From Chondrosia reniformis (taxonomy: Eukaryota; Porifera; Demospongiae; Chondrillida; Chondrillidae): DNA of 64,000 nt. Made by a program: the position numbers and the translations under genes. The DNA is taken from NCBI GenBank assembly GCA_947172415.1, contig OX359198.1, positions 4,681,401-4,745,400 of the forward strand, in the 5' to 3' direction. The notes under the pieces were generated by a model. It did no database searches and was not told where the DNA came from. It saw only the letters and a program-made list of their open reading frames with translations. Of the stretch, positions 13,972 through 40,700 are shown one piece after another. Numbering within the stretch: the stretch's first letter is position 1; the number at the start of each line of letters is the position of its first letter.

Positions 13972-16900
13972 ATGGCTTTCTCAGGACCAGGGCCCCCTCG
14001 TGATAGTAGATTTAGTGATGGTCAATCTAGCAAATATGCACCCCATGATCAGAAGGAAGAAACACTCAAAGACTCGGTTAGTTGTGTATACTATATATAT
14101 AGTCATGCATGGTATGATTTCCTTAATTGAACTAGCATGCATGTAATGTATGCATGGGTTCCAGGAAATCTTATTACATGAACAATAATGAATGGGATAT
14201 GTATAGCAATTTTCCTCAGTACGTGCACATAGCATCGAATCCTAACAAATGCTCTTCCAAAGATGCTGTAAGTAGGTTTTCCTCAGCAAAGTAATACAGG
14301 TTATTGTACAGTAGTAAATGCCTCTATTTAAAATTTTAGTACTATGCTTATGTGCCTATATATATATATATATATATATATATACTGCAAGTTACAATGT
14401 AGTAATATAGTAACTAAGCAATGCAGCTAACAGTGATGTAACATATATACATAAGGTAAATTTGTTCTTGAGCCAGTGGAACGTTTTAGATATATATATG
14501 TGTGCTTAAGTTTATGATAAACATTGTTTATAACAAATTAAATCTTAGAAGTTTTAAGAAATTTTAAGGAACAAGGTTTGATACCCATTTACCATTCATG
14601 TTTTATGTAATGCAAAATATGGCTACCCATGAGAATGTCATAGATTTTGATCTAGCTATGTAGAGGAGTTAATTGCACTGAGCTGTGCAAAAGCTATGAT
14701 GATAAGCAAATCATCACTGAAACGTATTACACCAAACTAGCCAAGTAATAGCAGTCTAATCTTGGCTGGGGATCTGGACCGAAGTCCCATTAAATTGGCA
14801 ACCAGCTATCGTCTCCCTATCACCCAAGATAGAAAATCATATTCTTTGCACGGATCAGCGCACTTAGACTGTAGCCTCCACCTTCACTTTTATGTAACCA
14901 CAAATACTTCACTTGTGGTGGATCAATAAGTGAAGCCAGTCATCATCATTGAAGTTAGTCTGGCTTGCTATCCCCTACTTCCTGCCTACTGACGATAATT
15001 GCACGTGGGTGAGAAAGTAGTAGACTACATTGAAGTGCATGTACCAAACTGATAAGCCCAAATGAGGGTGAAACAGCTGTCTGCAATTCTTTGATATTTT
15101 TTCCATCTTGGATAACTGGGAGATGATCACTGGTTGCCTATTTTTTAGGACTTCTGTTCCTCAGCCAAGATTATTTATAGACTGTATTCAGTCACTTGGC
15201 TGGCTTGGCATAATATTTTCCAGTGATATATTTTGCTTATCATAATAGCCTTTACAAGATTTCTTATATACATGAATAATAGCAATTTGCAAGTAAAGTG
15301 TCAATAGTTTTAAAGTTTTTATCCATGCTCCACTCCAATCTGCGTGTGAGGTTATGTCTCTCAATCCCATTACTTTTTATATACATCTGTGTTGTGCATC
15401 ATTTACATGCAGTTATATATAGATACTATCACAGGATCAAATTTCAGGTTTCATATGGCATGAAACCTATTTGAAACTTCTTGAACAGCCAGCTAGGTTT
15501 CAAAGGGTGCTCAAATATGTACTAATAGATTATGGGTTTCAAATTTTAACAGCCCCCTTTCCGAGTTTTATACATACTTTCATACCTTTTGAAACCTGGC
15601 TGTTCAAAGAGTTTCAAATAGGTTTCATACCTTCTGAAACCTGACATTTGATCCTGTGTATCTTTTAACCACAATTTCTGCTTATAAAGTTACCTAATAA
15701 TATATATTGCAATTGGTCATATTGGCACTTGTTTTACACACATGTTTATTAATTAATTTTTATTTAGCCGCAATTTATATTTTATGATGTACCTATAATA
15801 TATCTAGGCAACAAAGAAATTTCCTTTGCTTCCAAAAGATGCACTTGAGTCAAAGCAGAACTTGTTAGAGACTGAACTCACTCGAAAAACATATAAAGAA
15901 AGGTTTCATGTTCTTCTGTACTGGGAGGAGCATGAACATAATGAAATTTTGCACAAAAGGTACGTACGTATCTTATGTGACAACTTATTTACATATACGT
16001 ATATAAAATTAAAGTATATACAGTGCAGCCCACTTAATTCGAATTTCTGGGGACAATGGAAAAAATTTTAATTATCAGGTTATTTGAATTATTAGGGATT
16101 TAAGTTGATCTCAATCTAAGCATCTACATCTGCCTGTGATGAATCTCTATTGCGTTTTCTTGAATTTCTTCCATAGGACATGCTTTCTTTTTCAGAGTGC
16201 CACAGAGGGTGCTGGTTAGGATTCCAAATTCAGTGGCAATTTCTTTCTTTTTCTTCCCTGCTGGTGCTTTCTCTACAGCATCAATAATTTCTAATTTTCT
16301 TTTGATACTAAGCGACTGGTATTTAGAGCACTGCATTTTTACTCAACCTCAACAAAAGTATAGCCGTATACGTAATATGACACCGGTTACGCACGCTGTG
16401 CTAATTTGCTAATAAATCACACTGCAATATGATACATCCTGTGTGGTAACTTGTGTCAGCTGATTCGATTTAAGCGAGTTTTTTCCGTACGAAATAATGT
16501 ATTAGCTGCATACAGGGAAATAGAAAAATGTTCGAATTAAACGGAAATTCGAATTAAGCGAATTCGAATTAAGTGGGCTGCACTGTATTTTCTTGAAATG
16601 TGTGCATAAATTTTAACTTATGTTCTGGTCTTCTAAGAGACATCCTGCAAACCTTGCATCACAAGAGATCAAACCCACTCTGAAGGAGTCTACCACATTA
16701 ACCAAAGGCATGTATTGCAGGTTTAATGTCAGTGCCTTGGTAGGGAAAACTAGTCTCATGCATATAACCATCTGAAGTTGTCAATGTAATGCGATTAAGC
16801 AGTCATCAATTGATGTTACTAGCATATGATGGCAATTTTTTTCAATGTTTGGTATTAATATAAAATTATTGGCTAGAAGCAGTATATATGTACATGTACA

Positions 16901-19900
16901 GGTATCCAGAACTTATTCTCAGACTATTATATCAAGCAATCACAGTAGAATGGCATAAAAAGTAGATGGCTAAGTGATACTAGACGCTGCTTTGGGTGAA
17001 GTAACTCTACACCTAGAATGGCCATGATGTTTTATACAGGAGTTAGTTAGGAATAAAAGTTGCATGCACATTTGAGAGCTGTCTGCTATAAATATATATT
17101 TGGGGTCTGCTATAATGAGGTCCATTCTATGCATATGTACAGTATAAGCATATTCAATCACACTATATATGCACCTTCCCTTGCATCTATAGTTTACAAA
17201 CCATATATGCAAACCTGCGGTTTATCATAGCTCTTTTGTTAAGCCAAATGCATTCTTGAAAACTTTGTATTAAACCAGAGCTGAAACATCCTTAAAGGAG
17301 GTATTTAATGAGAGTGAAATGCTTGTGTGTAGCATTTTAAGGAAAACATTATACATACCTTTCATATATAATAGATTACATTTTTCTTAAACGTTAGGTG
17401 TAATGGCAAATATTCTGCCCAAAATTTTCCAAGAGAAGCTCATTTCATCCTACCTGGCTGGTTCAATGTCAATTGGTACCAATCTTTAATTGCTATTAGT
17501 GGAATGAAAGAAGATGACATTGATTATGTAAAACAGGCAGCTACACATGTAACCATCTCATCAGAATCATGTACATGCACTGGAGAAGTACTAAATTTTG
17601 ATTGTTACTATAAAGAAAGCCCTCGATTGATTGTGGGATTTAGGCAAGATAGTAACATTGACCAGTTGCTAGGTAGCACTCCTGAGGTAGCAGTAGATGT
17701 AAAATTCCTTTTGAAGCATAATTACTTTGAGAACCTTCACCAATCGGTGGAATGTATGCAAGATCCAATCCTCGCTAAAATACTACCAAAGGTGGCTGAC
17801 TTTATTAGTTATGAAAGGAAGGAGAGACCACACAAACCAACAGCCTATCAATTTTTACTTGATTCTCAATATCAGTTTGAAGCCCTTAAAAGAATTCTAT
17901 TCTGCAGTCCAAGAGTTCCCTTTCTAGTAACTGGCCCCTTTGGAACAGGAAAGACAAAACTGTTGGCTACAGCTGCCTACATGTTCCTAAGAGGAGAGGA
18001 AAAAAACCTTACTGATTCCAAGCAATGTCGAGTTTTACTTGCTACTCATCATCGCCAAACAGCTGATTGTTATCTGGACAGGTACTTTGGCCCAGCCACT
18101 GAAGATGGACACCTGCCTGAAGTTGACATCATCAGGCTAGTCTGGAACAAAGACAAATATAAGTACTCTGGAAGACACAAGCACCTAATAGGGTCAATTA
18201 AAGATATCGGAAGTCAAATTACATGGTATGATTTGATAATCACCACATTGCTTACTTCACTGGGTCTGTTTAGCAAATGTGAGGTTCAACCTGGATACTT
18301 TACCCATATTCTGATTGACGAGGCAGCTCAGGCTAGAGAAGCTGAAATAGCCGCAGTTCTGAGCCTCGCTAATGAACACACAAAAGTTATTATTGCAGGG
18401 GACCATCTGCAGGTATGAACATGTGTTAAGTGTTAACCTTAAAGGACAGTTGATAGGGGAGATACAATGTCTGCATATGTAAGAGCTACGTATATGTAAT
18501 CACTGGAATTATTACACTGAATAAGAACAATATTCACTGGCTATCATTTAATTGAAAAGGATACGATCCCCCATGTATGAATGCCACACACTCAGTGTAA
18601 TTAATACAGTGGCTGGTATATTCTCTTATTAAACTCTACCATGCCGGTTCCTTTTCATATTGTGAATGCTGTGTATACACATACAACTGTAATATAAATT
18701 GAGTGATTAAAAAGTATAGATATTCAATCACACCTGACGAATTAGGAACATTGCACTGAGCACATATGTACAGTATAAGTATAGTATACTGTACAGTACA
18801 GTATGTACAGTATAAGGTTTTGTTATTATGTACATATCTTGTATGTATATAATCAAGGTTGGTCCAGATACACTAGTCCTTGGACAGAAAGCCAGAGATC
18901 ATGGTCTTGGCAATTCCCTCTTGACAAGGCTGCATGCTCTCTACAGCTCGCCGGACAATAAGGAAAGGGCAGAACCCTACACAGCTAAGCTGCTGACTAA
19001 TTACAGATGCCATGACTCCATTTTAAAGTTACCTTCAGAACTCTTTTACAACTCCAAGTTAGAGGTACCATAAATTGATATACTCTCTCACTCACTAGCT
19101 ATATACATTAGGATACTCTGTATATTAACTGATTATGATTGAATCCATGATCATGAAACAGAAGGCATTACATGTTGTTGTCAGTGTGTTCATGTATAGA
19201 CTGTCAATTTAGTACAGATCCTGCAAAAAGTTGTTTCATTTTCTAAGTTCTTTGTAGTTATATGCATATATACACTCACTTATAAATTAAGGATATATAA
19301 AGCTGTACAAAAATGTCTTCAGCTCTGCATTTTTATTATACAGTCACGATCAAAGTCTAATCTTCACCCAAAATCAAGAAAAAATGGGGAGTTCAAAGAT
19401 GGTATTGTTTTTCAATGTACATCACTAGAGCAAGGAAATAAATTTTTAAGTGAAGAAAGTTTGATTTCCAATGCTGAACAGGAAGCTGATGAAATTTTTA
19501 ATTTAGTATCAAAGTTTTGCCGTCCTTGGCCTGATGAATGGCGGAGAGAAAATATAAGAAGGATATGTGTTTTAGCACCTTCCAAACTTCAAGTGAGTAC
19601 GTCGTATATTTTCGCTTAAACTGGATGCCAATCAAATGTACGTATAACCCCTCTATATACATATACATCATTATATTGAGGTTTTAATGAATTCTGCAGA
19701 AGATCCTCCCCTGGAAATTTATACCACTCTCATATGTATGTGTACAAATATCATTTTAATATCAATTTAAAATTAATTACCTGAAGGAAATATATAGACA
19801 CATACCATTTATATAGAAGTACAAAGCAATAGTTGTATACACATTTATACCTCTTGATTGGGTTTGTAGGTGGAAGTTTAGTAGGTCCATCTAGTAGTCC

Positions 19901-22900
19901 TAGAATTCCAGCATTCTTACAGCCTGCATTAATAATTTGCTGACCCCTTTCAGTGTTGTAAAAAATGTACAAACTTTTGAGCCACTGCGAGCATGAAGTG
20001 CTTTAATTGCTGTCAGTTGAAGGTTAACTCCTATATATGTCTTTAAATGCAATACCACTGTCAAATTGCCCTTTCACTGCAGTACAATTATTTTCGCATG
20101 TATACTTTTTGGCAGACCCATTGACTGTGAGGTCCATGGCTGAAATAGATGGGTCATGTTTGCTAGCACAGGTACAAGCTGAATATACAGCAACTCCAAC
20201 TTCTCCAGCACTGTTGCTGCCCTTTAAAACACATCTCATAGGGACTGTTGGGTTGTAGGTAATTGTAGCTGTGCTCGTTTCCTTACAGCATATAAGCGTT
20301 GATCACTTCATTTATTAGCTTTAAGGGTTCCTTTAAAATGCTATGTGTAATGTTTCATTTTAATGTGCATGTTTCTTTATTTATATACTATGTATGAGCT
20401 TGATGTATTATATAGCAAAGAAATATTCGAAAGAGATTTGATAATGATAAAGATTTATGGAAAGTAACTGTAGCAGTAGCTTATGACATACAAGGTACGT
20501 ACATATGCATGCACACATACATATATACATATATACGTATATATATATATATATATATATATACATACAAACACACATACCTATGTATATGCATCCTGAA
20601 CCTTGAAACTTTACAGTTCAACCTGATTTGTATATTACATACATATTATACATTCTCCATTTTCAAAATACTTAAAGGTCGTGAGTTCCGTGCTGTCTTC
20701 CTGTGTACATCAGAGCCCGTTCTTTCAGATGGTAGTACAGCCAACCCAACAAAGAGTATCTGTGATAAGTTTGTGTTTAACACTGTCATCACTAGAGCTC
20801 AGTCCTTGGTAGTTGCAGTTGGAAATCCATTCAGACTCTTTCAAATTGAAGAGAAACTACCTAATGGAGCTGGATGTTGGAAGGCTTATATAAAGCATTG
20901 CATCTCAATGGACTCACTAGGAGTGACACATACAGCATTGCTACATAGCAAATATCCTGAGGTTGCTTCACTAAAGAAATATTTGTCTTCATTTTTATAC
21001 AATGATGAGGTACATTGTGTATTTTGGTTCAATCAGAAATAGGCTATACATTATTGCCCAGAATTGAGGACTATATATCTATAGTCAAAATATAATATAC
21101 TAGGCTGAGAGACAGAGCTGATCATGAGGTCTAAATTATATTTTAGCAGAAGTCCAAGGCAATGGGCTATCACTGATTTATACCCCATTGCCATGGCATT
21201 CTAGTAGCCTAGGATTGAATAGCTAAAAAGGGAAAGGAATGCCTAACGTATATCTGCTTCAGTGACTAAAATATCACCAGTAACACAGAAATTAAAATGA
21301 TTGCATAATATTTACTTCGCACCCTGCATACACTTGCTTATGACATACAGCAATCCAGCTGTAGTAGATAATACCGTATGGACCTAAATTTTTGCGGGAC
21401 AAAACTTTCGTGGTTTCGGTTTTTCGCGTTTTTCGCGTTTTTATTTTCGCAGATGCTTCCTCACTCACGGTAGTCATATTGCAAACTATGACGTCATCGC
21501 ATTCTAAAATGGACGTACCTGGTAATTCGCTTGCACTTTTAAAGTGTATAGTCTAAATTTTCGTGGGACTAAACTTTCGCAGATGACTGCCAATCCGCGA
21601 AAACCGCAAAAGTTTAGGCCCGCGAAAATTTAGGTCCATACGGTGTTCTCCTCATTATCAGCTCGTTATCATGGCAATGGGTCATATATGATTATATATA
21701 TTGTGTCACTTTAATAATATATATACAATATAACAGGTACAAGTCAGCAGTGGCACTGAACATGAAGACAGCATTTTGACAGTCTATTCAGAGCCTAAGA
21801 CTTTCAAAATAGCAAAACCTTTTAGCTATAGGCGTCCCTATTCACAGCCAAAGGGACACAAAAAAGGAAGTAAGCAAATATGAAGAGGATAAAACAGAAT
21901 TGTTTTAATGTTTCAGGTATTACTTTCTATATAAACTTTAAATTACCGATGTATATATACATGAGCATGAGTTTTAATCATGATCAATTTCATATAAAAG
22001 TATATGAAATTGCTTATCAATATTGTATGAAGGGACACAATATTTGAATAAGCCTCCATCAACAACAAATCTGTCTGGAGACAGGAAGTACCACAAGCAG
22101 CATCAAAAATTCAAGGTACATGGGCTAGATCCTGTAAGTGAACCACAATGATATACGTATATACTCATAATTAATGGAATTTGCATATTTTATTTTCATC
22201 AAAGACAACACCTGGACATGGAGATGTGTATGAAGTTAATCCAGGATACTCTCAAAGTCCATTGTGTCTTGAGAACTTCATTCCTTCTGCAGACTTTAAT
22301 ATTGCTTGTCAAAAGAAAAGGTATTTCATGCTGATGACATTATAAATAAAAAAACAGCATTTTATATGTAAATTAGAAATACGTAAGCTTTGCATTAATA
22401 TTCGTCCTCAACATGTATATACTGTCATATGTACATATAATGGCATAGAACATGGTCAGAACAAGATACATATCCTGATCATGAAGAAATTCTTAATCAC
22501 CAAGTTGATGTGAGTAAATATAGCATTTTTTGACTGGGATAGAAAGGTGTACTTACATATATAATAATGTTTGAACCTGAAGTACAATGGAAACTGGCTA
22601 ACATGAACACGTTTTACATGTATACTTACTGCTAATGTAAACAGAATTTAGCGACTGATTATTAGTTTGACTATTGATTTAACCTACAAGTTAGTATAAT
22701 ATGGAAAGAAAGAAGAAAAGTGCTATTTTATTGATTTTGAATTTTCCGTGTCAAAACTTATTATAGAAGTATGTACTACTGTTAAACAAGAACTATAGTC
22801 TAATAATAAGAACTAAAAGATATGGTACCAGGAGCACTTGTTAACCAGTTTCCACTGTACGTATGTTATACTTTTTGTTTCATACTACAGGTATCTGTAT

Positions 22901-25900
22901 CTCAAATATAGTCCACTATAGGTGGCTTCATTGTGTATATGTACATAATATTGTCTTAAAGACATTGCTGTATTTTGAAAAGTTTACACAATATAGTATA
23001 TGTATATGTATCAGAGAGTACGGTAGTATGTATCAGAGAGTACGGTAGTACTCTCTAAGTAGGATTGCCCGAAAAAAAGATGGCCGGCCTATCTAATGTA
23101 TTACCAATTAACACCATTCCTACTTCAGGTTAGTGCGCCCAAACACAGAAGTGTATGGTTAAGTTACTTAAATTTCAGTATACATGTAACTTCTGTATGA
23201 TTAGCCTTATCATATAATCACTGTCTTGTTTTGATACCTTTTGCAGATGTATTAGTGAACACTGCCATTCCTACTTCTAACATTATTTTTGTAAATGTTT
23301 TTTATTTACTTGTAATATAATGCTCCCTCTATACGTATATGTGGTTGCATTGTATGATATTCATGTGTTTGTGTATATAGGATAATTTAAAATTACTTGA
23401 TAAAGAAGATTTGGAGGAAAGAGAGGCAATTCTTAAAGCTCCCCTTAATACTGAAAACTACAAAGACAAATTTCATGATTTATTATATTGGGAAGAACTT
23501 GAACATGAGGAAATACTTTCGGAAAGGTATAATATGTGGGTATTATGTACAAGTTATAGCCCATACACAGAGGCAAGGACGGTAGCCACAATATAATACA
23601 AGGCCAAGTAATTATATTTGGGCACTGTAAAAGGTGATTAATCCTATCTTTGGTATGGTACATCCTTTGACTTTTGAGCATTTAAAAATGCAGTTTGTTT
23701 TCATTTCTTCGTCAAACGTTTCAACCCTTGGGGTCTTTTTTCAGTGACTGATGGTTGAGTGGAAGAATTGCCTCTATTTATAGAGGATTTGTTTCCCACC
23801 ATTTCCACTTCCTGTCAAAACAAACTGCGTTTTTAAACACTCAAAAGTCGAAGGATGTACCATCCCAAAGATAAGTTCGATGCAGTTATAAGGAATCCTT
23901 ATTCTATTGTGATTAATCCTGTATGACATTTCTCAGGGTATATCTCTGAACCAACTGTGTATATCCCCCACAATTAACCAGCCCGTCCCATGGTATAAAT
24001 AGTATATATAATATATATAATATACAGAAGCAAGGTATTTAATATATATAGCCAAAATATAATCTAAACCTGAGGTGTAGTCGAGGCTAAGTCATTATAT
24101 TTTGGTTCAAGTCTGAGGTGATGGGATAAATTATATATACCCCATAGCCATGGGGTAACCCAGATTCAGTATATATGGCTAAAAAGCCTCTGGGTTATAT
24201 AGTTACATAATATGTAACCAGTGTATTATGTTTATTAATATTTTGTGTACTGTAAAGCTACAATTGTATGTGTGAGTTTTATTTACAAGGCACTGCCTAT
24301 TTCTATTTGCACTATATTAGTACCGCAAAACTCGAACCACACCCCTGGCCACTTCAAGCACGTTAAAATGAATTTCTTCTTCAAGCATTGATACAAAGTG
24401 TACTATAACTATGAATGCATCCGCAGAAGGATCGGTACCAGCAGTAAACGTAGAAGCGACCATATGCATTTCGAGTAATTTGTGATTGTCATTGTAGGCT
24501 TACCTCTAAAATGGAATTTTAAAATAGACACACCATTTAAACATATGTTTGACACAGTTGAAGGAAATCTATATTCTATTAAAATACATACTTGCATGCA
24601 TGCATTGCAGTATTCAGGTACTTACTTGTGCTTGCTTAATTTGTTATTCATATCCATCCATCATACACGTTTTAATTCTCAGTAATAAAAGAGGTTTGTT
24701 TAATCTTGATAGACAAAAACACATAAATAAAAATATTGCTTAGAGGCAAATTTTCCAAAACTGCATAAATTTCTCACACGCATACAATTGTAGCTTTACG
24801 TTATACATTATATTGTATATCAATATTATTATATATGTTTGTATTATTTAGATGTAATGGTACTTATAAAGTATCAGAACTACATCATTCATATTTACCA
24901 GAATGGGTTAATAAAGATGAATTTTATTCTTACTTATCAATTCATGGAATGTCAGAAATTCAGATGGATTATGCAAAGCAGGCCTCAGAAGGGGTATTCA
25001 TAGATATTAAATATTCTCATTCTCAACCATTGCAAGGAAAAGTTTTGCACATTACCAGAGAATATGACTTAGTGATTGGACTGACAGAATGTGTTATTGC
25101 AATTCCTCCACACTCCTCTGCTGAAGTAGAATTTGAGTTAAAGCATAGCTACTTCAAAAATTTACACCGTGCAATTAATAATCTGAAAGAGGAGATGATC
25201 AATAAGATAAATCCTTGTGAAGAAAGATTTCTTTGTAATGATTTCAAAGACAATGATACACCTAAAATAACAGCTAGAAATCTTAAGCAGTTTCAGTTAT
25301 CATATGAGCAGAATGACTCACTCAAGAAGGCCTTGTACAGCCCTCCCTGTGTGCCCTTTCTAGTGAGTGGTCCCTTTGGCACTGGGAAAACTAGAATGCT
25401 TGCTACAGCTGCACTTTTGATCTTACGAGGATGTGGATTTAAGAGTTCCCAGAAGCCTAGAGTACTATTGGCCACTCATCATCTCCAGACTGCAGATTCC
25501 TATCTAAACCTTTACTTTGGTCCTGCTGTAAGAAGCAGGGAATTAATTGAATCATCCGTTATAAGACTAATATCTAATACATCCTACAGATATGTTGGAG
25601 ATCAAAAATATGGCGAGCTATTTAAAATGACACAAAACATAACACCAAAAGACATTAACCAATCCAGGCTCTTCATTTCAACATTATTGACTGTACCTGC
25701 TTTAATGAAGAAAAGAAGTATTGTCCCTGGATTTTTTACTCATATTCTCATTGATGAAGCTGCTCAGGTCAGAGAACCTGAAGCTGTTGCAGCCTTTGCC
25801 CTAGCAGATAAGAATACAAAGATAATCTTAGCTGGAGATCACCTGCAGGTACGTGTATATATAAACATACATGCAGGAAAATAATGTATTTACACAGTTT

Positions 25901-28900
25901 CTGCTACATTGTAGATCTACATATTTGTGTGCTTTCACCTACCCATTATGTATTATACATGATGAACTTATTTAGGTGGGACCAGCAACTCTTGTATTGG
26001 GTGAAAAGGCACGAGAGTTTGGTCTAGGTCTCTCCATACTTCAGAGGCTTCACAAACTCTACAATTCAGATGGCATCAAAGACGTGGCTGAAGATTATTC
26101 CACAGAACTTATCACAAATTATCGTTGCCATTCAGGGATCCTCCGGCTCCCATCTCATTTGTTTTACAAGTCTACCTTACAAGTATGTTGATTTTATTGA
26201 AGTGCCCTGATTCAAAATGTTAGTTGTTGAATAAATTTGTACTCTTGAAGAATAGAGCCAGTCACAAATATAACAGAATTTCTATCAATATATATGCAGT
26301 ACCTATATACATATTTTTATACCTGTAATTTTAAAAAGCTACATTTAATTATGTGTAAAATTTATACGTATGTATTATGTAGGCTAGATCTGATAACCTA
26401 CTACATCCAGATACCAATCAGCCGATTCACTTCATTTGTACCTCATTTGAAGAAGATCTTAAAATACAGAGCAGAAAAGTAAACTTGAAAGAACAAGGAG
26501 AAATTGAAGCTAAAGAAATTTTAGATGCTATTAAGAGATATGGTTGGGCCAATTCTTGGCCTTTTCATTCTCAGACTGAAGATAGATGGTCCAATGTCGC
26601 AGTTGTGGCTCCTTCCAGATTCCAGGTTAGAATTAGCACATGCATGTATACATAATGTATACTGTAGTACATATATAAACAGCAATCCTTTAAATATTTA
26701 TAATCAGGAAAGAATTATTAAGAAGGTAATAAAGTCAAAAGAGTACAAGGAGATTGCTGGTATAAGTGTCCAAGTTGCCTTTGATATTCAAGGTGAGAGG
26801 TTAATATACATACACTTACACACCCAATTTATTGAGACTCAGCAAAAATTGTATTTAAAACCACATTGAATGTTTCAACCCGGAGGTCTGCATCAGCATA
26901 AATCATCAGCATCCTCATCAGCATTATGCTGATTAAGACCTCCGGGTTGAAACGTTCAATTTGGTTTTAAATACAATTGTTGCTGAGTCTCAATAAATTA
27001 TGAACGCAATATAAAACCCTTATCACTTCATTTACACACTGTATTATGGTTTTAAATATACATTTAAATTTATTTAATAAATCATATAATACTGTTTATG
27101 TGTTACTGTACACAGGTCGTGAGTTTCGTGCTGTCTTCCTCTGTACATCAGAACCTATTCAGCATAATGGAATAGTGGCCAACCCAACAAAGAGTATCTG
27201 TGATAAGTTTGTGTTTAACACTGTCATCACCAGAGCTCAGTCCTTGGTAGTTGCAGTTGGAAATCCTTTTAGACTACTTGGAACGGAAGAAAGTTTAGAA
27301 AATGGAGCTAGTTGCTGGAAGGCTTACATTAGGCACTGTCTAGAATGTAAATCACTGACCTTAGCTAATTCAGTAAGTCACAACTGTGCAACCTCATCAT
27401 TAAAAAGCCTTCGTGAGAGAGTGCTAATTAAGACCAGTGAATTAGTAGTTACAACCAGCCAATTGCATAGCACTAATACTGGAGATAGCATTTTGCAAGC
27501 TTACAGCAATGCAGTTCTAAAGAAAAAGCACATGGAGTGTGCTGCTCTTGCCTTACGTACTGTGGATGGTGATGCTAGTTGGACACTTTTGTGTAGTAAA
27601 AAGGAAAAAGGAGCGGTTTTGGGTAAAAGTGACACACCATCTCTATTTTCAGATTCAGAGACAATTAGATGTCAACTTTACCAGCAAACCCATAGATTTT
27701 GTGTTGCAAAACCTTTAGACTCAAAGAAAAATGACATTCACATTCAAGGAGTAAATAACAGAAAATGTGCATTTGATGGGGCTATTGTGGATGTACAACT
27801 ATTTCATAAAAATAGCAGTGGTTACAACTATGGCAAGGTGGTTAATATAGTTGAACAAGGACTTGTTGAGCAATATGTTTGCAGGGTAGACAAGTATAAC
27901 CCTATATTTTTCTTTCCACTTGACAGAAAGACACCCAAATTTATAAACCTTCCCCAGATTTCTAGATTGGGGGCAAAAAAGTTAAAGGAATCTAAGAAAC
28001 CAAATACAGAGAAGAAAAAGAAGAAATATGAACCACATGATGTGGTGTATTTTGACCCTGATTCTGTAAAAGAAGGTGAAGTTCCAAAGATTCGTGAATG
28101 TATTCCATTAGAGATTGCTGTAAACATGGTTTTTGTTGTTCAGCCTCTTAATTGGTGTAGCGACCATAGATTTCCGCTGGGTGTTGTGGTTGGAGTGTTG
28201 CCTCGTGGTGACACTATGTTTCATGCTGAAAGAATCTTGCAGGTGCAATATCAAATTACAAAAAATGAGGAAAGCTGTGATAATATTGAGATAAATAGTG
28301 AAACATCACCTCCCAAATGTGACAAGTGGAGGATGGCTTTCACTATAGATCCTAGTGAAGCCAAAAACTTGGATGATGCATTATCCCTAAATGTTTTAGA
28401 AAAAAATACAGACTACATCATTTTAGAATTTGCAGTACACATTGTAAATGCTGGCCGTTTGCTTCCTAAAGAGAGAAGGATTGAGGATTGCCTTCACTCC
28501 AGGTGTACTAGCATCTATGGAAAGTGTCAAGGAGAATACCGATTTACTCCTATGCTTCCTGAGCACATAACATGCCAACTCTCCTTGAATGCTAACCAGG
28601 AGAGGCAAGCTATTACAGTGTCAGGTAAGGCTAGGCTCAAATTATCTAATGGTGTAATTGACTTTCCTGATGACCCTCAAGTGGAAATTAAAGAAAGCGT
28701 TGTGTGTTCTTTAATTGCATTAACTTATGAGCAAGCAGAATGTCTGCTCTATTCAAATCAAGAAAGTCCATCAATTCAAGAGGCAGCGGAAGAAAAGCTA
28801 AAGCTGTACAATTGTTCAAAGTCTGCCAAAAGTTTTCCACTTGATGAGCAGTTGAAAATCTTGTTGATGATTGCTAAAGCTCTTCGCCTCAGGAGGCTAG

Positions 28901-31900
28901 GAGAGAGTGGACATATGTATGATCCAAGTGACCCTACATGTTTATCTGCTCCGTGCTCTCATATGTTAGTAGAAGAGATGATGATATGGGGTAATTCTGA
29001 GGTGGCAAAGAAATTATTTCATTCCTCAATTCCCTCTATTTTGCTTCGAATTCAGCCAAATCCAAAAGATGATGAATTAGAAAATTTTTGTACCAATTTT
29101 TCATCATTTTTATGTGCAAGTCTTAGATATGCTAGTGAGCAGTATCAAAGATGCATGGCAAGGGAAGAAGAAAAGATTCACCCACCTTTTCTGCTGATGC
29201 ATGACACAAAGAAGGAACTAATTGACAAACTTACTGAGAAGGATCTTCAAGGTGTGTTAAATCTGTTGAGTGCTGAGCACATCTATCCGCAGTTAGCTGT
29301 AATGAGTAGGCACAATGCCAGTATGAAGTCAAAAGCCTCATACAAGGCTATTGATGACCGCTCTAATGTTTCAGCTGAAGAAGTTAAGCAGAAATATGGA
29401 CACTATGACCTGAATGTGCTATACACACAGTTTTCCTCACCATTGCGTAGAGCCCCAGATGTAATTGTGCAAAGGTTACTACTGGATGCCATTTATGACT
29501 CACGAGATGCATCCTATAGCCATGAGGAGCTAAAGAAATTAAGTCAAACATTTAATGGTAAAATTAGAAATGCAAGCAGCTTTGAAAGAGCCTTGACTGC
29601 TTTAGATATAGCAATCTATGCTGGTAGATCTTCAATTTGTACAACTGCATTTATATCAGGTATATCAAAGACTAAAATAGAGTTGCTATTCCAGAACTTG
29701 GATCTTAAAAAGCTTCCAAAGAGACAGATGACTCTACCATCAACCGTGCTGCTTCCTCATACTTCCCATAAGCACAGACAATGGAAGGTTTTAGTTGCCA
29801 CATTTTTTAAGGATGACTGTGTAATGGATGTAACCCAATACACTGAACTTGTTCACTGTGATAGGAGAGTAAAAGCTAAACCCAATCATGAAACTAAGGC
29901 TTCTATGTTCACATGTACAGCTGATCATGACTCAAAGGACAGTGGTACATTTGAACGAAAGACATTACTATTTTGCCACAAGTCATTACTGACTATTGTC
30001 CCAATGTCATTCAGGATTGCAGCTAATGAGTTTATTCAGTCTCCAAGTGCAGAAAGCAGTGAGAAGATGCTATCCACATTGTCAAATCCTATTGACAGTG
30101 AGACTGATTTCAATATGGCTCCCCATATAGAGGATGCAAATTGTATTTTTGATGATGATTCTGATCTTGATTATTCAGTATCAAGTGAAAAGAACCAATT
30201 ACATGCTTCAGAAGAATCAGACGATGAAGACATAGAGAATCATCTGGCAAAGAGTAAAGATGCTAGCCAGACAACTGTTTCAGTTACAAAAGAAGACTTC
30301 TCTACTCAGTCACTTTTGAAAAAAGCTTCTTTTGCTTTTCTTGAGATTCCATTTTCTCTGCAGCTTTTTGATCCTCTAAAGATTTGGATGACATTTGACT
30401 CACGAGAGTTCATTTTAACCCCAATGATTCAACTAGTTGAAATAGCACCAAATCTCAATGTCTGCACTCAGCACCTTAGCTCACCTGCCATCTGTTTCTC
30501 CCCTAATGCTATCCAAATGGCATCTTCTGATGTTTATGAAGATATTGAGCAATATAAAAATCTCTGGGAAGGTGTCCTTCTACCAGAAGGAGCTGCATCT
30601 TCCTTTAAGTCTATTTCAGAAAATTCAAGATTGGTTATTATTCGTAATGTCTTACTTCAGTGGCCTAGGCTTGAGATTCCGAGCAATGCAGTTGATGATC
30701 CTTACTATGTGGTCAAGCAGAAAAATTTCATCACCTTGCAACTTCCAGACGGTTTCACTGAAGACTTAAATGCCTACATAGAGCTAAGACCTGGATGCCT
30801 ATTATGTGTCCGTTACATCATAAAATTGGAAGAAGATGAAACTAAATTATTATTTAGTTTAGCAAAGAGGATGGGGTTTGTAAAGGACACTGATGGAACA
30901 GAGGATGCTTTAAAGAGGCTATTAGGGCCTCACAGTGATGGCTATATTAGGGCTGTATATCATATGGTGATTAGAGAAACATCTGATCAAAAGGAGGAAC
31001 ATAAGGTAGGTTAATCAAAATACGTGCAACACTTTTATAAGATATCTTTTTTCAGGTAGATTTCTTTGCTTTTTAATGTATAGAAACCTTTGAAGCTGAA
31101 AGTCAAATTTCTCAGTGGTGGTGGACATAATGTATCTGTTGTAATGAAGGAGTTTCTGAGCCAAGAGAAATATAAATGTAACATTGAAGTGACTGAGATG
31201 AGCATTCCTGACATGTAAGTTTGACAATGTTACACGAGATTCTTCGAATTCTGTCTTTCTTTTATATGAAATATTTTTACATATGTCACTTGACATTTAA
31301 CATTTATATATGGCTGATAGGTTATTATCTTAATATCACAATATACAATACTGAGTATGTATATACAGCATGTACGTATAATACAGTCTGCTGAACAAAA
31401 AGCATGTGGCTAGGATGAACACTTACTATGTAATGGTCTGAACCACTAATTACCTGATAATGGGATAGAGCCATTAGTAAATATCCAATATTGTCTAGCT
31501 GCGTGTCCTAGGTTTGATTCCCAGAAATTAATTCTTTTGAGCTCTTTTCTAGTTCTTACGTGTATACTTGTGGTTTGATTATCAATAAAATTCTTCATAA
31601 TATGATGTCTGTATAGTAAAGCATTTATCATGCATACTTGCTTAATGTTTGTAGGAGAGTTTACAGTTCACTTGTAAGACTAAAAGAAGATTTCATAGCT
31701 TCTGATATAGCTCTTGTGAGGAAAGACAAGTTAAGAACTGTGAGAAACGGTAAGCGCTAAATTAAGTGAATTATTTTGTATGAGTCAATAATGAATACCA
31801 AAATGCATGCATGCCTCATGACAAGTTATGTATATAGGTTTGGTGGTATATAAGTATGTACCGGTGCTAATACAAGTACGTATAAATACTTACCCATGCC

Positions 31901-34687
31901 CATCTGCAGATAACTGGAAGATTGTTGAAAATGACAAAAATGTGCTAAAATTATGGAACAATCCTGGTTCTATAATGATCAATGAAGAACAACGAGAAGC
32001 CTTGAAACGATCAATGCAAGCTCCTTTCACTATGATACAAGGACCTCCAGGTTCATTATTGAGTGATCTACATACGTGCATACATACATACGTACATACA
32101 GTACCTATTAACAATCTGAGAATTATGCTATTATAATTCCCTCAGTTGATATATTAGTTGAGTCAATAAACTTAATAAAGACAAACTGACTTGTCAGAAA
32201 GGGAATGCTTCTGAGTCACCTATATTTGTTCATCCTCTTTGTTTCTCTTATAGGGACAGGAAAGAGTGTGACTGGTGCACACCTTGCTTACGCCTTTGCT
32301 TTAGTAAATAAGCAGAGGAATTCTTCTGGAATGAAGCCTCCATGTGTATTGTATTGTGGTCCATCAAATAAATCTGTTGAAGTAGTATTAAGTAAGTTTT
32401 AAATTAACACTACAAAGAAATAGTGTATCTACATATGCAGTGTGATATTTCCATTTACTTTCTAAATTTCATTGTACATGCCTTTCTAAAGTGATTAATG
32501 GTATTCATCCTTTAAAAGCCACAATTTGAAAGTAGCCAGGGTTAAAATTATACACTGAACCTTGCACAGTACTGATTATAAATACTGGGTTCAAATCCCA
32601 GTAATTGCTTTTTCCTTCTTTAATTGTTGCCTGATGTTTGAGAGTGATTACTTGTGGTTTGATTATCACTTCTCAATTATTCATGTATATTTATAATAAA
32701 CTGCATCCTTAGGAAACAGACTGAAAATTATTAGTTTAAGAATAGTTTCTGTGAAGGTTTTAATTTAATTACGTATGTTTGCAGACACACTTTTAGCTTT
32801 CCCTTTGTCATTAATATTAATCAACTAATAGAATTTTAATATTTCATTTGAATTTTGTGTAACTTGAATGTAGAAATGCTGCTGCCTATGAAAAACAACG
32901 TTAAATTATTGATGGTATATAGTCGCACCATAGAAAGTAATGATACCCAACCTATATTTGATCGTAAACTGCTGGGATACCCAAGGCATGAACACAAGTG
33001 TCCAGAGGAGCTGCAAGTACATATAATAGCTTTTTTAGTTCATACCATTGAAATAGTTGATGATATATACATACGTATGTACATACAGTACTGTATGTTT
33101 ACATACGTACATGAATTGCAAATATAGGAATTTGCTTTGCATCACTTGATAAGGAAGTCATCACATAGAAAAAAAATTAAAGATATTGAAGAAAGTTTGC
33201 AGCAGTCTAGAAAGGAAGGATTTGAGCCTAGTGGTAAAGCAATAAGAAAATGGAAAAAAGTAATTGAGAAATCTGAAAAGGAAATTATGGGAAAGGGATA
33301 CGACATTGTATTTTGTACTTGCAATGAGGCTGGGAGTGGAAGGATACCCAGAAGCCTTAGCCCCATTCAGTGCATCATTGATGAAGCAGCTATGGCCACT
33401 GAACCAGAGTGCATGGTACCTATATCCATATCAGAACATGTTGTTCTAATTGGTGACCACCAGCAGCTTCAGCCTATAATTGAGCACAGAGAGTCAAAGG
33501 AAAATGGACTGGAGTGTTCTCTCTTTGAGAGATATGCTCTGAAGATTGATGACCCTCCACTTATTAAATTGACGAAACAGTATAGAATGGTAAATAAATG
33601 TGTATAATGTATTATGCAGTATGTGTGTATTCTTCTGAATATATAGGTTAAGCTTTAGCATGTAACCATGCAGCAATTGTATACATAAATATTTTTATGA
33701 ATCTATCCAGAAAGCATTGAACTAATCCAATATGTACTTCTTCAGACTTATGTACATAATAGGCCATATACATATGAGGAGCTGGTGATGAAGGTCATAA
33801 TATACATATCAGAGAGTACGGTAGTACTCTCTAAGTAGGGATGGCCGAAAAAAACATGGCCGCCCTATTCAATGTATTATCAATTAAAACCTCATAAATC
33901 AAGTTTTACCACAGGCCATCCTGCAATCCATGTACTGTGTACATGTATGTATTTGATTGAAGTTGAAACTTATAGAGATTTAAGTGACATTTATATATGT
34001 CTAAATTATCAGTTTAATAAATATGGCCTCTATATAGATAGCCGAGGGTTTACCATGCACGTATGATTAACTATATGTCTATATTTATATAGAATGAATC
34101 TGTGTGCTCATTCCCGTCTGAACAATTTTATGATGGAGACCTGGTTGCTGATGAAAGCTTAAGAGGCAGAGTTTCAAAAGTTGAAAACTTAAAAAACTTC
34201 TGGCCCTCGAGTTAGTTATATTGATATATACCTATACTAGGATGTGTGTATGTTAGATGTTTTATATATATACAGAAAAACAACGAATTGTATTTTGTGA
34301 TGTGGAAGATACTGGGCAGAGAGCTGAAAAAGAAACTGCAGTGGGTACACACTCACAAAGTAATCATACTGAAGCCATTAAAGTGGTAAGGAGCTAGATG
34401 CAACCAACTGCAACAAGATCTTTAAGTTCAACTTTAACAACTGCAATATTACTTTATGATAGAAATATAGGCAGTCATGATTACATGATGCTATATATAA
34501 GTGCACATATAAGGTCAAACCTCCTATCATGCACTAATTGTCATTAACACATGTACACTATTTAAACAGTATTTAGTGTACATTCATTGATAAAGGTACG
34601 TATGTATATATATAAGCTGATGAAACACTTGAATTTGAATTGTTTATCTCTGCTAGTGTGAATAGAAAAGTGTTTTTGAGTCTATAT

Positions 34688-34718
<31 letters not shown>

Positions 34719-36940
34719 GTGAAACTATAAGTTATAGTTTCATCTAAGCAGGAATTGCATACGTATATATGTAGTAATTTGAACCAAACTTCCTGCCACA
34801 TAGAGCTATACATGGTACTAAACATTATGATCAAAACTGCTTTTGGTGTGTGTATTATGTGACTAGCATTGAATTATATAGTGGTAATAATATGTATATA
34901 TCCTGGACATGAAAAATCTAAGATATATACCATTTTCCTACATGCTATGCCTATTCTGTAAAAAAAGCTTATAGGGGGACTAAACCTAAAGAGAACTTTG
35001 GATGAAGATACAGGAGTCTTTTCTTTCTTCTTTTTCGTTCTTTCATCTACGGGGTCAGACAGCTGTTTCTGGGAATTCCACCCTTCATCAGTGATCCTGG
35101 GAGTCTTTGTCTTTTTCTTATCTTTATCTTGATCTTCTGTGAATCCTTGTATTAGTTAATTGGATTATATTATAAGGAGCACCTCCATATACTGTAACAC
35201 AGATTTCATTAGTTATTTAATTATAGTAATTTCAGTTATATATATACGTACATATAGTGGTTGCCATATTTTTCATTTTAAAACAACATTTAGGTGCAAA
35301 TTGTGGAAACTTTGATTAACAAATACAAAATTGAAACCAAAGAATTAGCTGTTCTTACCCCATATAAAGATCAAAAAATTCTCATCAGAAAACTTCTAGA
35401 GGAAAAAAGGATTGTAGATATTTCTGTACGCACTATTACTGAAAGCCAAGGTATGTACGTATGTAGATTATAATGGCTCTGGTAGCAATATATGTGCAAA
35501 TTACTCTGCATGGTTTGAAATGTTTATGCACCTCTACCAGTACCTTTAATCATGCATGTTCAGACACCATAAACATATAGGGAGAGAGTATTTACAGTTG
35601 TGTTCATATAATAGAGATTATTCTTCAATTGAGCAATCACAACAAAATTCAATTAATAATAAATGATGATGAGTGTACAAAAGCTTAAATATATAGAAAA
35701 TCTTTGACATGTACGTATTGATTGCGTTGCATACGTAGTAAATCATTTCAAATGCAAACAGAACATTCAATTCGGGCTTGGCTACAACGCACCTGAGAGA
35801 TTTGTACATACATTCATCATCATTATAGCTCATGAAGACCTACGTGCATGTGTTGAAATTAACCTTCTAGATCTACTAATTGATCATGAACATATTGTTG
35901 CTGATTGCTCAACAAGGACTATATAATCTCTATATATAATAGTAGTATACACTCAAATACATACGTATACTGTATATATGTCTATATATGTAGGCAGTGA
36001 ATTTGGACTGGTGGTTCTATCTACTGTCCGTTCACTTCCCATCAAGGATATTCAGGATGAGGAGGCTGTCCAAGCTGACAGACAGTGGATCTTGGAGAAT
36101 CTAGGATTTGTGACAGATCCCCATCAAGTGTGTGTTGGTATCACGAGAAGTAAATATGGACTGATTATAGTGGGTGAGTGAATCTAATGCCAAAACATGT
36201 GTCGATCAACTGCAGGTTGACATGTTTTATTTCATGTATTTTCAACCTATATAAATGCATTACTGTAACCCACAAAACTGCTAATATATATTACAGAACT
36301 GGTGTTAGGAGGTTCTGAATGCGAATGATGTGTAAAGTCTCTATAAACCTCTAAACAATATAATCACAATATTTTACATTTGAAGGTATTATGTATAATA
36401 TCCTGCTATCTGACACATATTTCAGTGGAATAGCATCCTATATATAGAACCTGTTTAGGCCACATTAATTATAAGTGATAAAAGGCTTTGAGTAAAATTC
36501 AAGAAAGTTAGGATTATATAAAGCTTACCTATAAAAATCAAGTTTTGAACTACAAAAGACTCAATGTAATGTATATATACGTATATCAGTGATATCACAC
36601 AATCAAATCAGAAATATGCATACATTATATAATTAATTGATCCAAAGTTTGTAATCCAACCATTGATTGTAATTAAAGAATACCAATTTTTCTTTCTTTT
36701 TCCACTTGGCCAGATAGCTAGCAGTTTTTGGAATGCACCTCAATTTCATCAGTATCTTTGTCTTCTATAAGTCCTATTGTGTGTTTTTATATGTCAATCC
36801 TTTTTTGCAACCTATATATATAATATTATGTAGGTAATGGAGTACTTTTAAATTATGACAAGTTGACTTGGAGTGAATTGCTGAATCACTATAGGAAGAA
36901 GAATTGTATAGTGGATGGAGCCAAATTTCCTTTAAAGTGA
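13972..36940 (+). CDS. HELZ2: HELZ2-like protein: three SF1 helicase modules plus RNB domain
   Basis: Relative of HELZ2, a nuclear receptor coactivator and interferon-induced RNA helicase/nuclease. Exons: 13972-14076, 14220-14267, 15808-15959, 17398-18412, 18858-19064, 19344-19592, 20416-20494, 20678-21009, 21737-21869, 22033-22133, 22205-22320, 22449-22509, 23381-23526, 24852-25848, 25976-26182, 26383-26625, 26708-26792, 27116-31005, 31084-31214, 31655-31749, 31910-32050, 32254-32391, 32874-33016, 33128-33589, 34093-34210, 34276-34385, 35294-35450, 35994-36173, 36834-36940. All junction phases agree and the total is 9,948 nt (3,315 residues). Helicase A: Walker A GPFGTGKT at 281-288, DEAAQ, GDHLQ, NYRCH, GREFRAV, NTVITRAQ. 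Helicase B: the same set, Walker A at 1088-1095. RNB: TIDPSEAKNLDDA around 1835-1847 and TSIYGKCQGE. Helicase C: GPPGTGKS at 2842-2849, DEAAM, GDHQQLQP, QYRMNES, ESQGSEFGLVV, GITRSK. No N-terminal zinc fingers seen. The first two exons are the least certain. Confidence 0.9.
14756..15173. mobile_element. MITE-like element in HELZ2-like intron 2
   Basis: The left end TAATCTTGGCTGGGGATCTG is mirrored by the right end CTGTTCCTCAGCCAAGATTA. The interior is non-coding. Confidence 0.6.
15431..15660. mobile_element. MITE-like element with CACAGGATCAAAT ends
   Basis: Left arm ACAGGATCAAATTTCAGGTT, with ATGAAACCTATTTGAAACTT further in, mirrors right arm AGTTTCAAATAGGTTTCATA and GACATTTGATCCTGTG. It is non-coding and lies in intron 2. 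Confidence 0.75.
16021..16585. mobile_element. Non-autonomous pogo/Tigger-like DNA transposon
   Basis: Terminal inverted repeats CAGTGCAGCCCACTTAATTC / GAATTAAGTGGGCTGCACTG are flanked by TA on each side, the tc1/mariner-type target duplication. Inside, the minus strand (16336-16124) encodes a CENP-B/pogo-type helix-turn-helix: LSIKRKLEIIDAVE followed by KKKEIATEFGILTSTLCGTL. The transposase catalytic domain is absent, so it is an internally deleted copy. It sits in intron 3 of the HELZ2-like gene. Confidence 0.88.
19858..20290 (-). other. Possible opposite-strand exons, unknown protein, inside HELZ2-like intron 6
   Basis: On the minus strand an open frame from about 20290 to 20024 reads ...TYNPTVPMRCVLKGSNSAGE and continues through VGVAVYSACTCASKHDPS and KKYTCENNCTAVKGQFDSG, a cysteine-rich, protein-like composition with a possible acceptor near 20252. 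A second open stretch at 19972-19858 contains NTERGQQIINAGCKNAG and GLLDGPTKLPPTN and ends at a weak AG/GTATAA donor. I do not recognise a family. It could be a nested gene, a retro-inserted fragment, or chance. Confidence 0.3.
20529..20562. repeat. (TA)n microsatellite
   Basis: Pure TA run in intron 7 of the HELZ2-like gene. Confidence 0.9.
21374..21643. mobile_element. MITE, same end type as 9829-10066
   Basis: Ends CCGTATGGACCTAAATTTTT and AAAATTTAGGTCCATACGG are inverted repeats. Internal palindromic pieces repeat the same CGCGGGAC/AAACTTTCG motif, as if one end had been copied inward. It lies in intron 8 of the HELZ2-like gene. Confidence 0.8.
22996..23282. repeat. Dispersed repeats with palindromic GAGAGTACGGTAGTACTCTC
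   Basis: Two parts. At 22996-23100, CAGAGAGTACGGTAGT is repeated twice and followed by a stretch that recurs at 33805-33890. At 23108-23282 lies the inverted partner of 6862-7022. Non-coding; intron 12 of the HELZ2-like gene. Confidence 0.7.
23652..23876. mobile_element. Fold-back MITE-like element
   Basis: Left arm GGTACATCCTTTGACTTTTG ... AAAATGCAGTTTGTTTT mirrors right arm AAAACAAACTGCGTTTTTAA ... CTCAAAAGTCGAAGGATGTACC. It is non-coding and lies in intron 13. Confidence 0.8.
26828..27003. mobile_element. Fold-back element with long arms
   Basis: About 70-base arms: TTTATTGAGACTCAGCAAAA ... GTTTCAACCCGGAGGTCT at the left is mirrored by AGACCTCCGGGTTGAAACG ... GCTGAGTCTCAATAAATTA at the right, with a short loop. 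It is non-coding and lies in intron 17, just before the RNB-containing exon. Confidence 0.88.
31435..31595. mobile_element. tRNA-like SINE, copy 1
   Basis: A box-B-like AGGTTTGATTCCCAG at about 31509 and the tail ACTTGTGGTTTGATTATCA are shared in order with the copy at 32510-32670. No cloverleaf can be completed, so it is not a tRNA gene. Intron 19 of the HELZ2-like gene. Confidence 0.5.
32510..32672. mobile_element. tRNA-like SINE, copy 2
   Basis: Contains CTGGGTTCAAATCCCAG, a good RNA polymerase III box B, followed by a diverged body and the same TACTTGTGGTTTGATTATCA tail as copy 1. Intron 22. Confidence 0.55.
33800..33895. repeat. Second copy of the GAGAGTACGGTAGTACTCTC repeat
   Basis: Matches about 23024-23105, including CTCTCTAAGTAGG and the following GGCCGAAAAAAACATGGCCG. 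Intron 24. Confidence 0.75.
34915..35115. repeat. Dispersed repeat family 'AGCTGTTTCTGGGAATTCC', copy 1
   Basis: Contains CAGCTGTTTCTGGGAATTCC, AACTTTGGATGAAGATACAG and CCTATTCTGTAAAAAAAGC. Inverted copies are at 37225-37460 and about 60440-60640, and a same-orientation copy at about 38930-39115. The copy here and the inverted copy at 37225 bracket the last three exons of the HELZ2-like gene. Confidence 0.75.
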
Positions 36941-37721: not shown

Positions 37722-40700
37722 TCAACTACCAGTATGGGTAATGGCCTCTTTGACCAGTTGACAGACAGTGTCAGCACAGCCCCACGAATAGTTGATCCCA
37801 TTGCTCCCATGACCATAGTTATGGATAACAATTCCATTCTGAAGCTTCTTGGATTCAACACGAATCTTTTTCCTACAAAAATTAAATATTACTACTAATT
37901 ATGATTCAAAAAAGGTTATGCTAATTAAGTCTTTTAAATAATATCTAAAGTAACACTAACAAAACATTAAAATAGTATCACCTGTAAGGTCTCCTGCCAG
38001 TCCATTCTGACAGCTTTGTGCATTTTCTCATGTTTGGTATGAATCTACTTGCTCCATCTATAATGTCACTAGTAATGTCTGGGTTTACCTGTGTGGAATT
38101 CAAATCTGGAATGGTAACTCCACCTAGTACCACAGAACCATCTGGACGAGGTAAAATTAAAACATGGCTGTCTATAGCAGGCTTGTCCCATATAATAAAA
38201 TGGTTCAACCAAGGAGCTTGAACACTCATCAATTGTCCAAAGTAAGGTTTGACTTGTTTATCATTGGCTAGATCTGCTGCTCCTAGTCCAGCACAGTTAA
38301 TTACTACATGAAAATCTGTAAGAAGGTCTTCAAGACTAGTTATCACCTTTTCAATGATGGGAACACCACTCTTTTCAATGTCTTTCATAAGCCAAGGTAG
38401 ATACATGCTACATAATATGGAATAAGATACGTACATTACAATGTAAACACACAATTAGTTATAATTATTACAGATTTCTAATACTAAATACATACAACTG
38501 AGCATCACCCCTAAAGGGTTTCCAGTTTTTGAGAAAAAAAGTTATTGATAGTCAAACGCACAAAAAGACTAAAGCTGCTTGCTCTCCCTATACGTATGGA
38601 TGGTAAGCAATGTAGAACTGATTAATCAAACTATCTACATTATGTATGTACAAAAAATATTACACAATGGCATATTGACTTCATATTTATAAATATAAAA
38701 AAATACATTTTTTTTCTATTCCTTCTTCTTTGTTCAATAAAAAGCAACAATTACTATATGAGAACTGCCTATTACCTGCAGTAACCTTGTAATGTAGAAG
38801 GGATCGATGGGTTTCAGTATGTATGGGAAAGAGAAAGAGGTGCATATACGTACGTATGTAGCACTAACTTATATGTCACCAGATTTAATAAAATCTCTAT
38901 CTATAGGCGAAACAGCAGCCCATGATAACATGAACACCATTTTCTACATACTATGTCTATTCTATGGTAAAAGGGCTAAAAGGAATTAAACCTAGTATCT
39001 AGTGAGAACTTTGGATGAGGAACAGCAGTCTTTTTTTTATTATTCTGTTCCAATGGGCAAGAAAGCTGTTTCTGGGAACATCACCCTTTATCAGTCTGGA
39101 AGCCTTTCTACATTAGACCCTAGCTCATATTAGTTTAGGTCATGTACAAACTTACAAAAGTATGGATTATAATTTCAAAAACTCACTTACAAAGTACTGT
39201 TAGCGTACTGTAAAACTGAGTGTTGGGCTGATCTGGAATTAGATTCATACGTTCCCTTTCCTCCCTTTTGACTGTTCTGTAACCAATCACTATGTCTTTG
39301 AACCAAGCCTCTTCAACAGGGACCGAATCAGCAATATTGCCTTTGGAATCATCAATTACATAGCCTGAAATTAAATTAACACCACATTCCACGGGACCTT
39401 TGGTTTGGTACAACTACATATATAAAAATAGTAGTAAGTCCAAAGTACTCTGCAATAATTAAACAAAGAAAATGGACTTAAAAAACAATGGACAATTTCT
39501 AAATCAATTCTCCACACAAACTTATAACTTTCTGATCAAATGCACAACCTTCTAACTGTACTCAGAGAGAGATTTAAAAATGGCGGTTAGAGCTGAATTA
39601 ATGGTGACATTGCTCCTATTACTTCTTATTATATCCCAAGCTATTGTTTAGAACTTGGCTATGCTATGGGCATAGAGAGTCGTCCACTGATTATTGAGAG
39701 TGCTTTGTCTTGCAGAGGGGCTTTCCCGATGATTGTTCCATTGTGGGAAAAAAGTTCACACCTTCGAACAAGATTGTTTCTGCGACGGTGTGGTATTCCT
39801 TGGCAGTATTGGATGATTCTTCAAGCTAGTGATGTTGAGTTAAATCCAGGGCCTGTAAGGTACCCGTGTACAACCTGTAGTAAGCCTGTAAAGAGAAATC
39901 AGCGTGGGTTACTTTGTGACGTATGTGAACAATGGATGCACGCTACTTGTTGTGGCATTGATGAGACTGAATACGAAAGACTTTGTTTAGCCGAGGAGGA
40001 GAAGTGGCTATGCGAAGCATGTAAGTCTTCAGAGTGTACCATGGAGTCCTGCACTGAATCACCACTGTGGAATCAATCATCTATCATGCAGCATTTTACT
40101 AGTAGTGGCAGATCATTATTGGTTAGCCATCTCAATATAAGGAGCTTAGTGCCCAAGTTTGATGAGTTGCAACACCTAATTGAGGATCTGGGTGACTGTC
40201 CTATGGTGCTTGGGTTGAGTGAAACTTGGCTTGATGATACAGTAGGAAGCTCTGAGATATCCGTTGAGGGTCACAGATTGTATAGAAGAGACAGGCATGA
40301 GGGAAGAGGTGGCGGTCTTTTACTATATGTCACTAACAGGATTAAAAGTATTCAAAGAAATGACCTTGAGTGAGACAATATGGAGGTAATATGGATTGAG
40401 GCAAGGGCTGGAATGGAAAGTCTTCTGATTGGCAATATGTACAGACCACCAAATGCTCCCTCTGCATGGATGAAATGTATGTCAGAGATGCTTGAAGTGG
40501 TAGTCCAAGAAAGCAAGGCTACAATATTAATTGGGGACATTAACTGTAACATGCTTAATCCTGACAGCCATACAGGAAGGCTAAATCTGGTGACTACAGA
40601 ATTTGACTTTTCTCAGATAATAACCAATCCTACCAGTGTGACACAGAACATGGAGACCCCCATAGACCTTCTCCTTATCACGAACCAGGACATGATTGAA

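Follow-up and report, generated by a model that had tools for sequence, protein, structure and literature searches.

Does the DNA between positions 13972 and 36940 of the analyzed stretch hold one HELZ2-like gene with two helicase modules ahead of its RNB domain, or does it hold two neighboring genes? The stretch, referred to as the window, comprises 64,000 nucleotides of Chondrosia reniformis chromosome 10 (OX359198.1:4681401-4745400; genome odChoReni1.1, 117,379,552 bases in 15 contigs, i.e. 14 chromosomes and the mitochondrial sequence), within which the gene occupies 4695372-4718340. In human HELZ2, superfamily-1 helicases flank the RNB domain on both sides, as is the case in the sponge gene, but the human protein contains one helicase before RNB while the sponge protein contains two and thus three helicases in total (human layout as described in PMC9839780). 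A three-helicase HELZ2 layout was not found in the open-licence PMC papers searched. Judging from the sequence, a single intact HELZ2-like gene of approximately 3,300 residues, composed of modules A and B, a central RNB domain and module C, is the probable answer, to which a likelihood of roughly 80% is assigned.

The predicted gene is located on the plus strand and extends from an ATG at 13972 to a stop codon ending at 36940. Its exon edges were picked by hand. Rebuilding the exons from the raw sequence revealed that all 28 introns are of the GT-AG type with compatible phases and that the sole stop is the one at 36940. The original prediction of 29 exons joined in one frame was thereby confirmed, while the length of the product had to be corrected from 3,315 to 3,309 residues. 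Least certain are the N-terminal exons N1 (13972-14076) and N2 (14220-14267), which have been assigned with low confidence. Module A (15808-21009) is encoded by six exons (15808-15959, 17398-18412, 18858-19064, 19344-19592, 20416-20494 and 20678-21009), followed by the linker exons L1 (21737-21869), L2 (22033-22115), L3 (22205-22320) and L4 (22449-22509), which together span 21737-22509. The first five exons of module B (23381-23526, 24852-25848, 25976-26182, 26383-26625 and 26708-26792) cover 23381-26792. The last motifs of this module (GREFRAVFL, ITRAQ) are located at the start of a single exon of 3,890 bp (27116-31005), which also contains an OB_HELZ2-like stretch (27667-27858) and the RNB domain (28336-29493). 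Module C (31084-36940) is composed of eleven exons (31084-31214, 31655-31749, 31910-32050, 32254-32391, 32874-33016, 33128-33589, 34093-34210, 34276-34385, 35294-35450, 35994-36173 and 36834-36940).

Outside this gene, two adjoining D-amino-acid-oxidase-like exons were detected on the minus strand (37978-38454 and 43283-43741; Pfam DAO, 6.7e-15 and 6.4e-17), which are probably tandem genes. The other features lie on the plus strand. LINE-like remains with a PHD finger and a reverse transcriptase domain are present at 39597-41192. A GC-rich stretch (46-47%) with several long frames (54427-58564) matched a phage-integrase-type recombinase (4.2e-7) and, by eye, looks like a DIRS-like retroelement. 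Very serine-rich and acidic, repeat-rich frames at 7697-9048 resemble, likewise by eye, a nucleolar phosphoprotein; the section 8275-9045 gave no Pfam match.

A Pfam search of the predicted protein, the check named together with the original prediction, detected helicase domains in each of the three modules in addition to RNB, which agrees with the predicted arrangement of two modules before and one module behind this domain. Module A revealed AAA_12 (1.8e-21), AAA_11 (1.6e-15) and Mov-10_helical (1.1e-5), module B AAA_12 (5.7e-16) and AAA_11 (5.1e-15) with Mov-10_helical slightly under the cut-off, and module C AAA_12 (4.1e-46) and AAA_11 (3.1e-42). NCBIfam models, among them those of the IGHMBP2 family and RNase R, matched only under their curated cut-offs and were left out of the naming. 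The helicase motifs claimed for every module were recovered as well. Modules A and B each contain GPFGTGKT, DEAA, GDHLQ, NYRCH, GREFRAVFL and ITRAQ; module C possesses variant spellings (GPPGTGKS, DEAA, GDHQQ, QYRM, GSEFGLVVL and ITRSK).

The layout A-linker-B-RNB-C is encountered a second time in a paralog located 0.49 Mb from the window gene (chromosome 10, 4184979-4209787; 26 exons, 3,600 residues). The two proteins are identical at 1,711 of 3,254 aligned residues (52.6%), and the entry phase is the same in all 24 exons common to both models (A1-A6, L1, B1-B6 and C1-C11), the exon edges of the paralog having been set with the window gene as guide. No separate exon of the paralog model corresponds to N2 (48 bp), and in both genes the ATG lies 7 bases past an AG acceptor. 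Going by the sequences, recurrence of the layout at two loci is more than chance. It also argues against an assembly artefact, that is a misplaced tandem copy. Though misassembly is known to occur at tandem copies in general, the layout is repeated here at a second, diverged locus, modules A and B are just 49% identical and hence far too different for a collapse or a false copy, and a quality of QV 69.8 is given for the primary assembly in PMC12181767. Such an artefact is scarcely credible.

The comparison of the two genes also bears on the integrity of module A. Between window gene and paralog, dN/dS values of 0.17 for module A (618 codons), 0.20 for exons 2-5 of module B (499 codons), 0.19 for the RNB exon (1,276 codons) and 0.16 for module C (582 codons) were determined, which are rough since dS is about 2 and thus near saturation, though all of them are far below 1. 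The UPF1-like patterns GxxGTGK[TS], DEAA, GDHxQ, QYRM or NYRCH, motif V and [IV]TR were identified in six of six modules of the two genes. That extra copies of domains frequently decay is general knowledge, and module A might be imagined as a functionless, decaying remnant of a tandem duplication. However, it is constrained like the rest of the protein and its six patterns are all present in both genes, rendering this explanation very improbable. The earlier impression that no module looks dead is borne out by these values.

To trace the origin of the extra module, a tree of 11 N-terminal modules (613 columns; chromosome 5 being represented by one of its three N-modules) was considered. Module A of the window gene paired with its paralogous counterpart A' (100/99) and module B with B' (100/98), which places the A/B split before the split of the two genes. 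The chromosome 13 module, the A pair, the B pair and a group from chromosomes 5, 2 and 9 emerge from one unresolved fork, and the modules of chromosomes 6 and 3 form a separate group. The path length between A and B is 1.93, those from A and B to the chromosome 5 module are 2.94 and 2.98. The same pairs would equally be obtained if a block of two neighboring genes had been duplicated. For a single gene, the tree suggests that the additional N-terminal module was gained before the whole gene was copied, either by doubling of the N-module or by capture of a neighboring single-module gene.

The link between modules A and B is the weak point of the one-gene model. Instead of one gene, a free-standing helicase gene (module A with its tail) could be followed by an ordinary HELZ2-like gene of the type B-RNB-C, the pair having been copied en bloc. 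A precedent for a single-module gene exists on chromosome 13, the final intron of the linker is long in both genes (871 bp in the window and 1,986 bp in the paralog), and several splice sites of the linker are weak. Compared with 45 other introns, the acceptors of L1, L3, L4 and of paralog L1 rank with the 3 to 6 lowest, the donors of paralog L1 and L2 with the 3 to 5 lowest. The poor conservation of L2-L4 (19-29% identity to the paralog linker) also speaks against the one-gene model.

These points are confronted with the coding character of the linker exons, which are phase-compatible with B1 in both copies. The codon scores of L1 to L4 (0.137, 0.141, 0.229 and 0.341) all exceed the 95th percentile of length-matched open intron windows (0.059, 0.087, 0.075 and 0.111, respectively), and the linker exons of the paralog are open over 206 and 108 codons, compared to 0 of 1,093 and 0 of 1,765 sampled intron windows. 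A blind search for the best exon chain from the A6 donor to the B1 acceptor was performed with scores trained without the linker exons and with one set of settings (exon penalty 10, site threshold 1.0, shortest intron 50). In the window it returned L1 to L3 exactly and L4 with a donor 4 bases later; in the paralog both linker exons were recovered exactly. Two small extra exons proposed by the search in the window were not accepted; together with the shifted L4 donor, they weigh against the one-gene model. The chain scores of 34.4 (window) and 85.5 (paralog) were reached by none of 60 shuffles per locus (maxima 20.6 and 29.1) and by none of the 17 and 16 stretches of real introns (maxima 14.5 and 15.0).

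Moreover, L1 encodes the conserved tail of a helicase module (EDSILTVYSEP in the window, DDSILQCYSEE in the paralog), which is also found after module B (GDSILQAYSNA), and therefore module A extends past 21009. The TGA at 21881-21883, at which transcripts had been predicted to end if there were two genes, is real and terminates the L1 reading frame, yet it lies beyond the L1 donor. Since the B1 acceptors are strong in both copies (10.2 in the window and 9.1 in the paralog, with 43 and 38, respectively, out of 45 other introns scoring lower), B1 is not a first exon. Within the last linker introns, 21 and 33 candidate start exons running from an ATG to a donor were counted. The best of them, with 5 codons scoring 2.6 and 21 codons scoring 2.7, remained below the paralog linker exons (58.8 and 28.5) and the window linker exons (3.8 to 8.7), so that in neither copy did the final linker intron reveal a start exon with coding character; a start inside the linker exons further upstream is conceivable. 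The alignment of L2-L4 to the paralog linker, at only 19-29% identity, was not counted as evidence. A TTPGH string occurs in both linkers, in an alignment that leaves the two places unpaired, and the two final linker introns share a stretch of 42 bases (79%) that was not taken for coding sequence. On balance, two adjacent genes are unlikely. The proposal of one gene with three superfamily-1 modules and RNB finds good support in the second locus of the same design, the coding statistics of the linker and the low dN/dS values, as far as sequence data can tell, and the gene would be transcribed as a single mRNA.

For the RNB domain, a Pfam match of 5.8e-38 was obtained; the OB_HELZ2 stretch scored 28.6 bits at a cut-off of 29.3. 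In human HELZ2, the 3′-5′ RNase activity was abolished by changing D1346, D1354 and D1355 (PMC9839780). The spacing of these aspartates is kept in the motif of the window gene (DPSEAKNLDDAL at 28348-28383, with the catalytic aspartates D1831, D1839 and D1840 of the model), in the paralog (DPLGAINLDDAL) and in the chromosome 6 gene (DHPGTVTLDDAL). At position +6 of the motif, the three sequences have Asn, Asn and Thr, respectively, and the DIS3-like gene of C. reniformis has Asp (DPQGCTDIDDAL). Three of the four further copies compared, namely those of chromosomes 2 and 9 and the single copy read from chromosome 5, have lost the aspartates, while the fourth (chromosome 6) keeps them. The HELZ2-like paralogs of chromosomes 2, 9 and 5 are thus candidate pseudonucleases. 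Parallel losses of the RNB active site, giving rise to pseudonucleases, have been described for fungal relatives of RNase II (PMC8097288).

By sequence, the RNB exon matches chains of DIS3L2 (2.7e-16) and RNase R (7.7e-13), and module B those of UPF1 (1.2e-11) and SMUBP2 (9e-7). What separates the sponge protein from DIS3L2, DIS3 and RNase R as well as from UPF1 and SMUBP2 is that helicases and RNB are joined in one chain. Cold-shock or S1 domains of the RNase II/DIS3 type were not detected around RNB by Pfam in the RNB exon. A scan with this exon yielded peptide-pattern matches in 7 stretches of viral contigs and in 38 stretches of bacterial or archaeal contigs, none of which encoded a relative.

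HELZ2 carries a zinc finger in its name, which is located N-terminally. Within the predicted exons of the sponge gene, neither a zinc finger family of Pfam (E 0.01, four protein pieces) nor a CCCH pattern was found; the RNB region contains one loose CxxC pattern (residue 1878), which was not interpreted as a finger. The features that mark membership in HELZ2, a helicase N-terminal of RNB, a central RNB domain and a helicase C-terminal of it, are all present. On the other hand, the protein possesses three modules and not exactly two RNB-flanking helicases as in the layout given in PMC9839780. Due to the deviation from one helicase before RNB and the outcome for the zinc finger, the gene was named HELZ2-like and not HELZ2. 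The three-helicase variant of the HELZ2 design is real, constrained and present twice, and the sequence indicates that it is probably one gene.

Relatives are spread over the genome. The P-loop exon of module A matched at least 13 places; among the matches listed, four belong to chromosome 10 (two loci), three to chromosome 5, two to chromosome 3 and one each to chromosomes 13, 2, 9 and 6. The exon of the C-terminal helicase matched at least 19 places, at least 11 of them with an identity of 48% or more, which among the matches listed comprise two on chromosome 10, five on chromosome 5 and one each on chromosomes 2, 6, 9 and 3. The HELZ2-like genes of chromosomes 2, 9, 5, 6 and 3 likewise show matches to an N-module, an RNB-type exon and the C-terminal helicase, but those of chromosomes 2, 9, 5 and 6 have one N-module per RNB exon compared to two in the window gene. 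The chromosome 13 gene is a free-standing helicase gene with a single N-module (approximately 5800-9800 of the 20 kb fetched) and a first part rich in Pro, Gln and Ser; matches to module B, RNB and the C-terminal helicase are absent across these 20 kb. On chromosome 3 (1414756-1444481), two N-modules that are 98% identical are separated by approximately 17 kb, and only part of the RNB exon follows the first of them; by its sequence, this pair is a recent partial tandem copy. Two loci on chromosome 5 (7976271-7981180 and 8066224-8071074) gave matches to the RNB exon and the C-terminal helicase with no N-module nearby among the matches listed, and they may have lost it.

In human cells, LINE-1 is repressed by HELZ2, a helicase-RNase whose expression is stimulated by interferon. 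This repression was relieved most by changes in helicase 2, to a lesser and cell-line-dependent extent by changes in helicase 1, and only slightly by a change in the RNase (all as stated in PMC9839780). By analogy, the likeliest mechanism of the sponge protein would be a helicase-driven remodelling of RNA or RNPs coupled to 3′-5′ degradation. The helicases and RNB are predicted to be enzymatically active. Acting on structured RNA or RNPs, which they would bind, unwind or strip, the helicase modules might help to feed a 3′ end into the RNB domain for degradation, while the extra motor may contribute processivity or a further RNA-binding site. It is conceivable, again by analogy with the human protein (PMC9839780), that this activity is used against viral or transposon RNA; the RNA-sensing or antiviral role put forward with the original prediction draws on the published work on human HELZ2 as well. 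In the sponge Dysidea avara, two HELZ2 transcripts were reported to be lower upon meeting symbiont consortia (PMC11229196). HELZ2 genes are thus expressed in a sponge, an observation on expression and not on the role in C. reniformis.

Taken from sequence comparisons, the family appears to be split into genes with two N-terminal motors and a competent nuclease (the two genes of chromosome 10), with one such motor and a competent nuclease (chromosome 6), with one motor and a pseudonuclease (chromosomes 2, 9 and 5) and with a free single motor (chromosome 13). Tentatively, and at slightly less than even odds, the protein may be a three-motor RNA helicase-exoribonuclease and this split may reflect the birth and specialization of an RNA-defence family in an early-branching animal. 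The variation in helicase number and nuclease site from copy to copy constitutes a natural series on the contribution of each motor and of the nuclease, and the sponge HELZ2-like family also bears on the age of the HELZ2 arm of RNA control.
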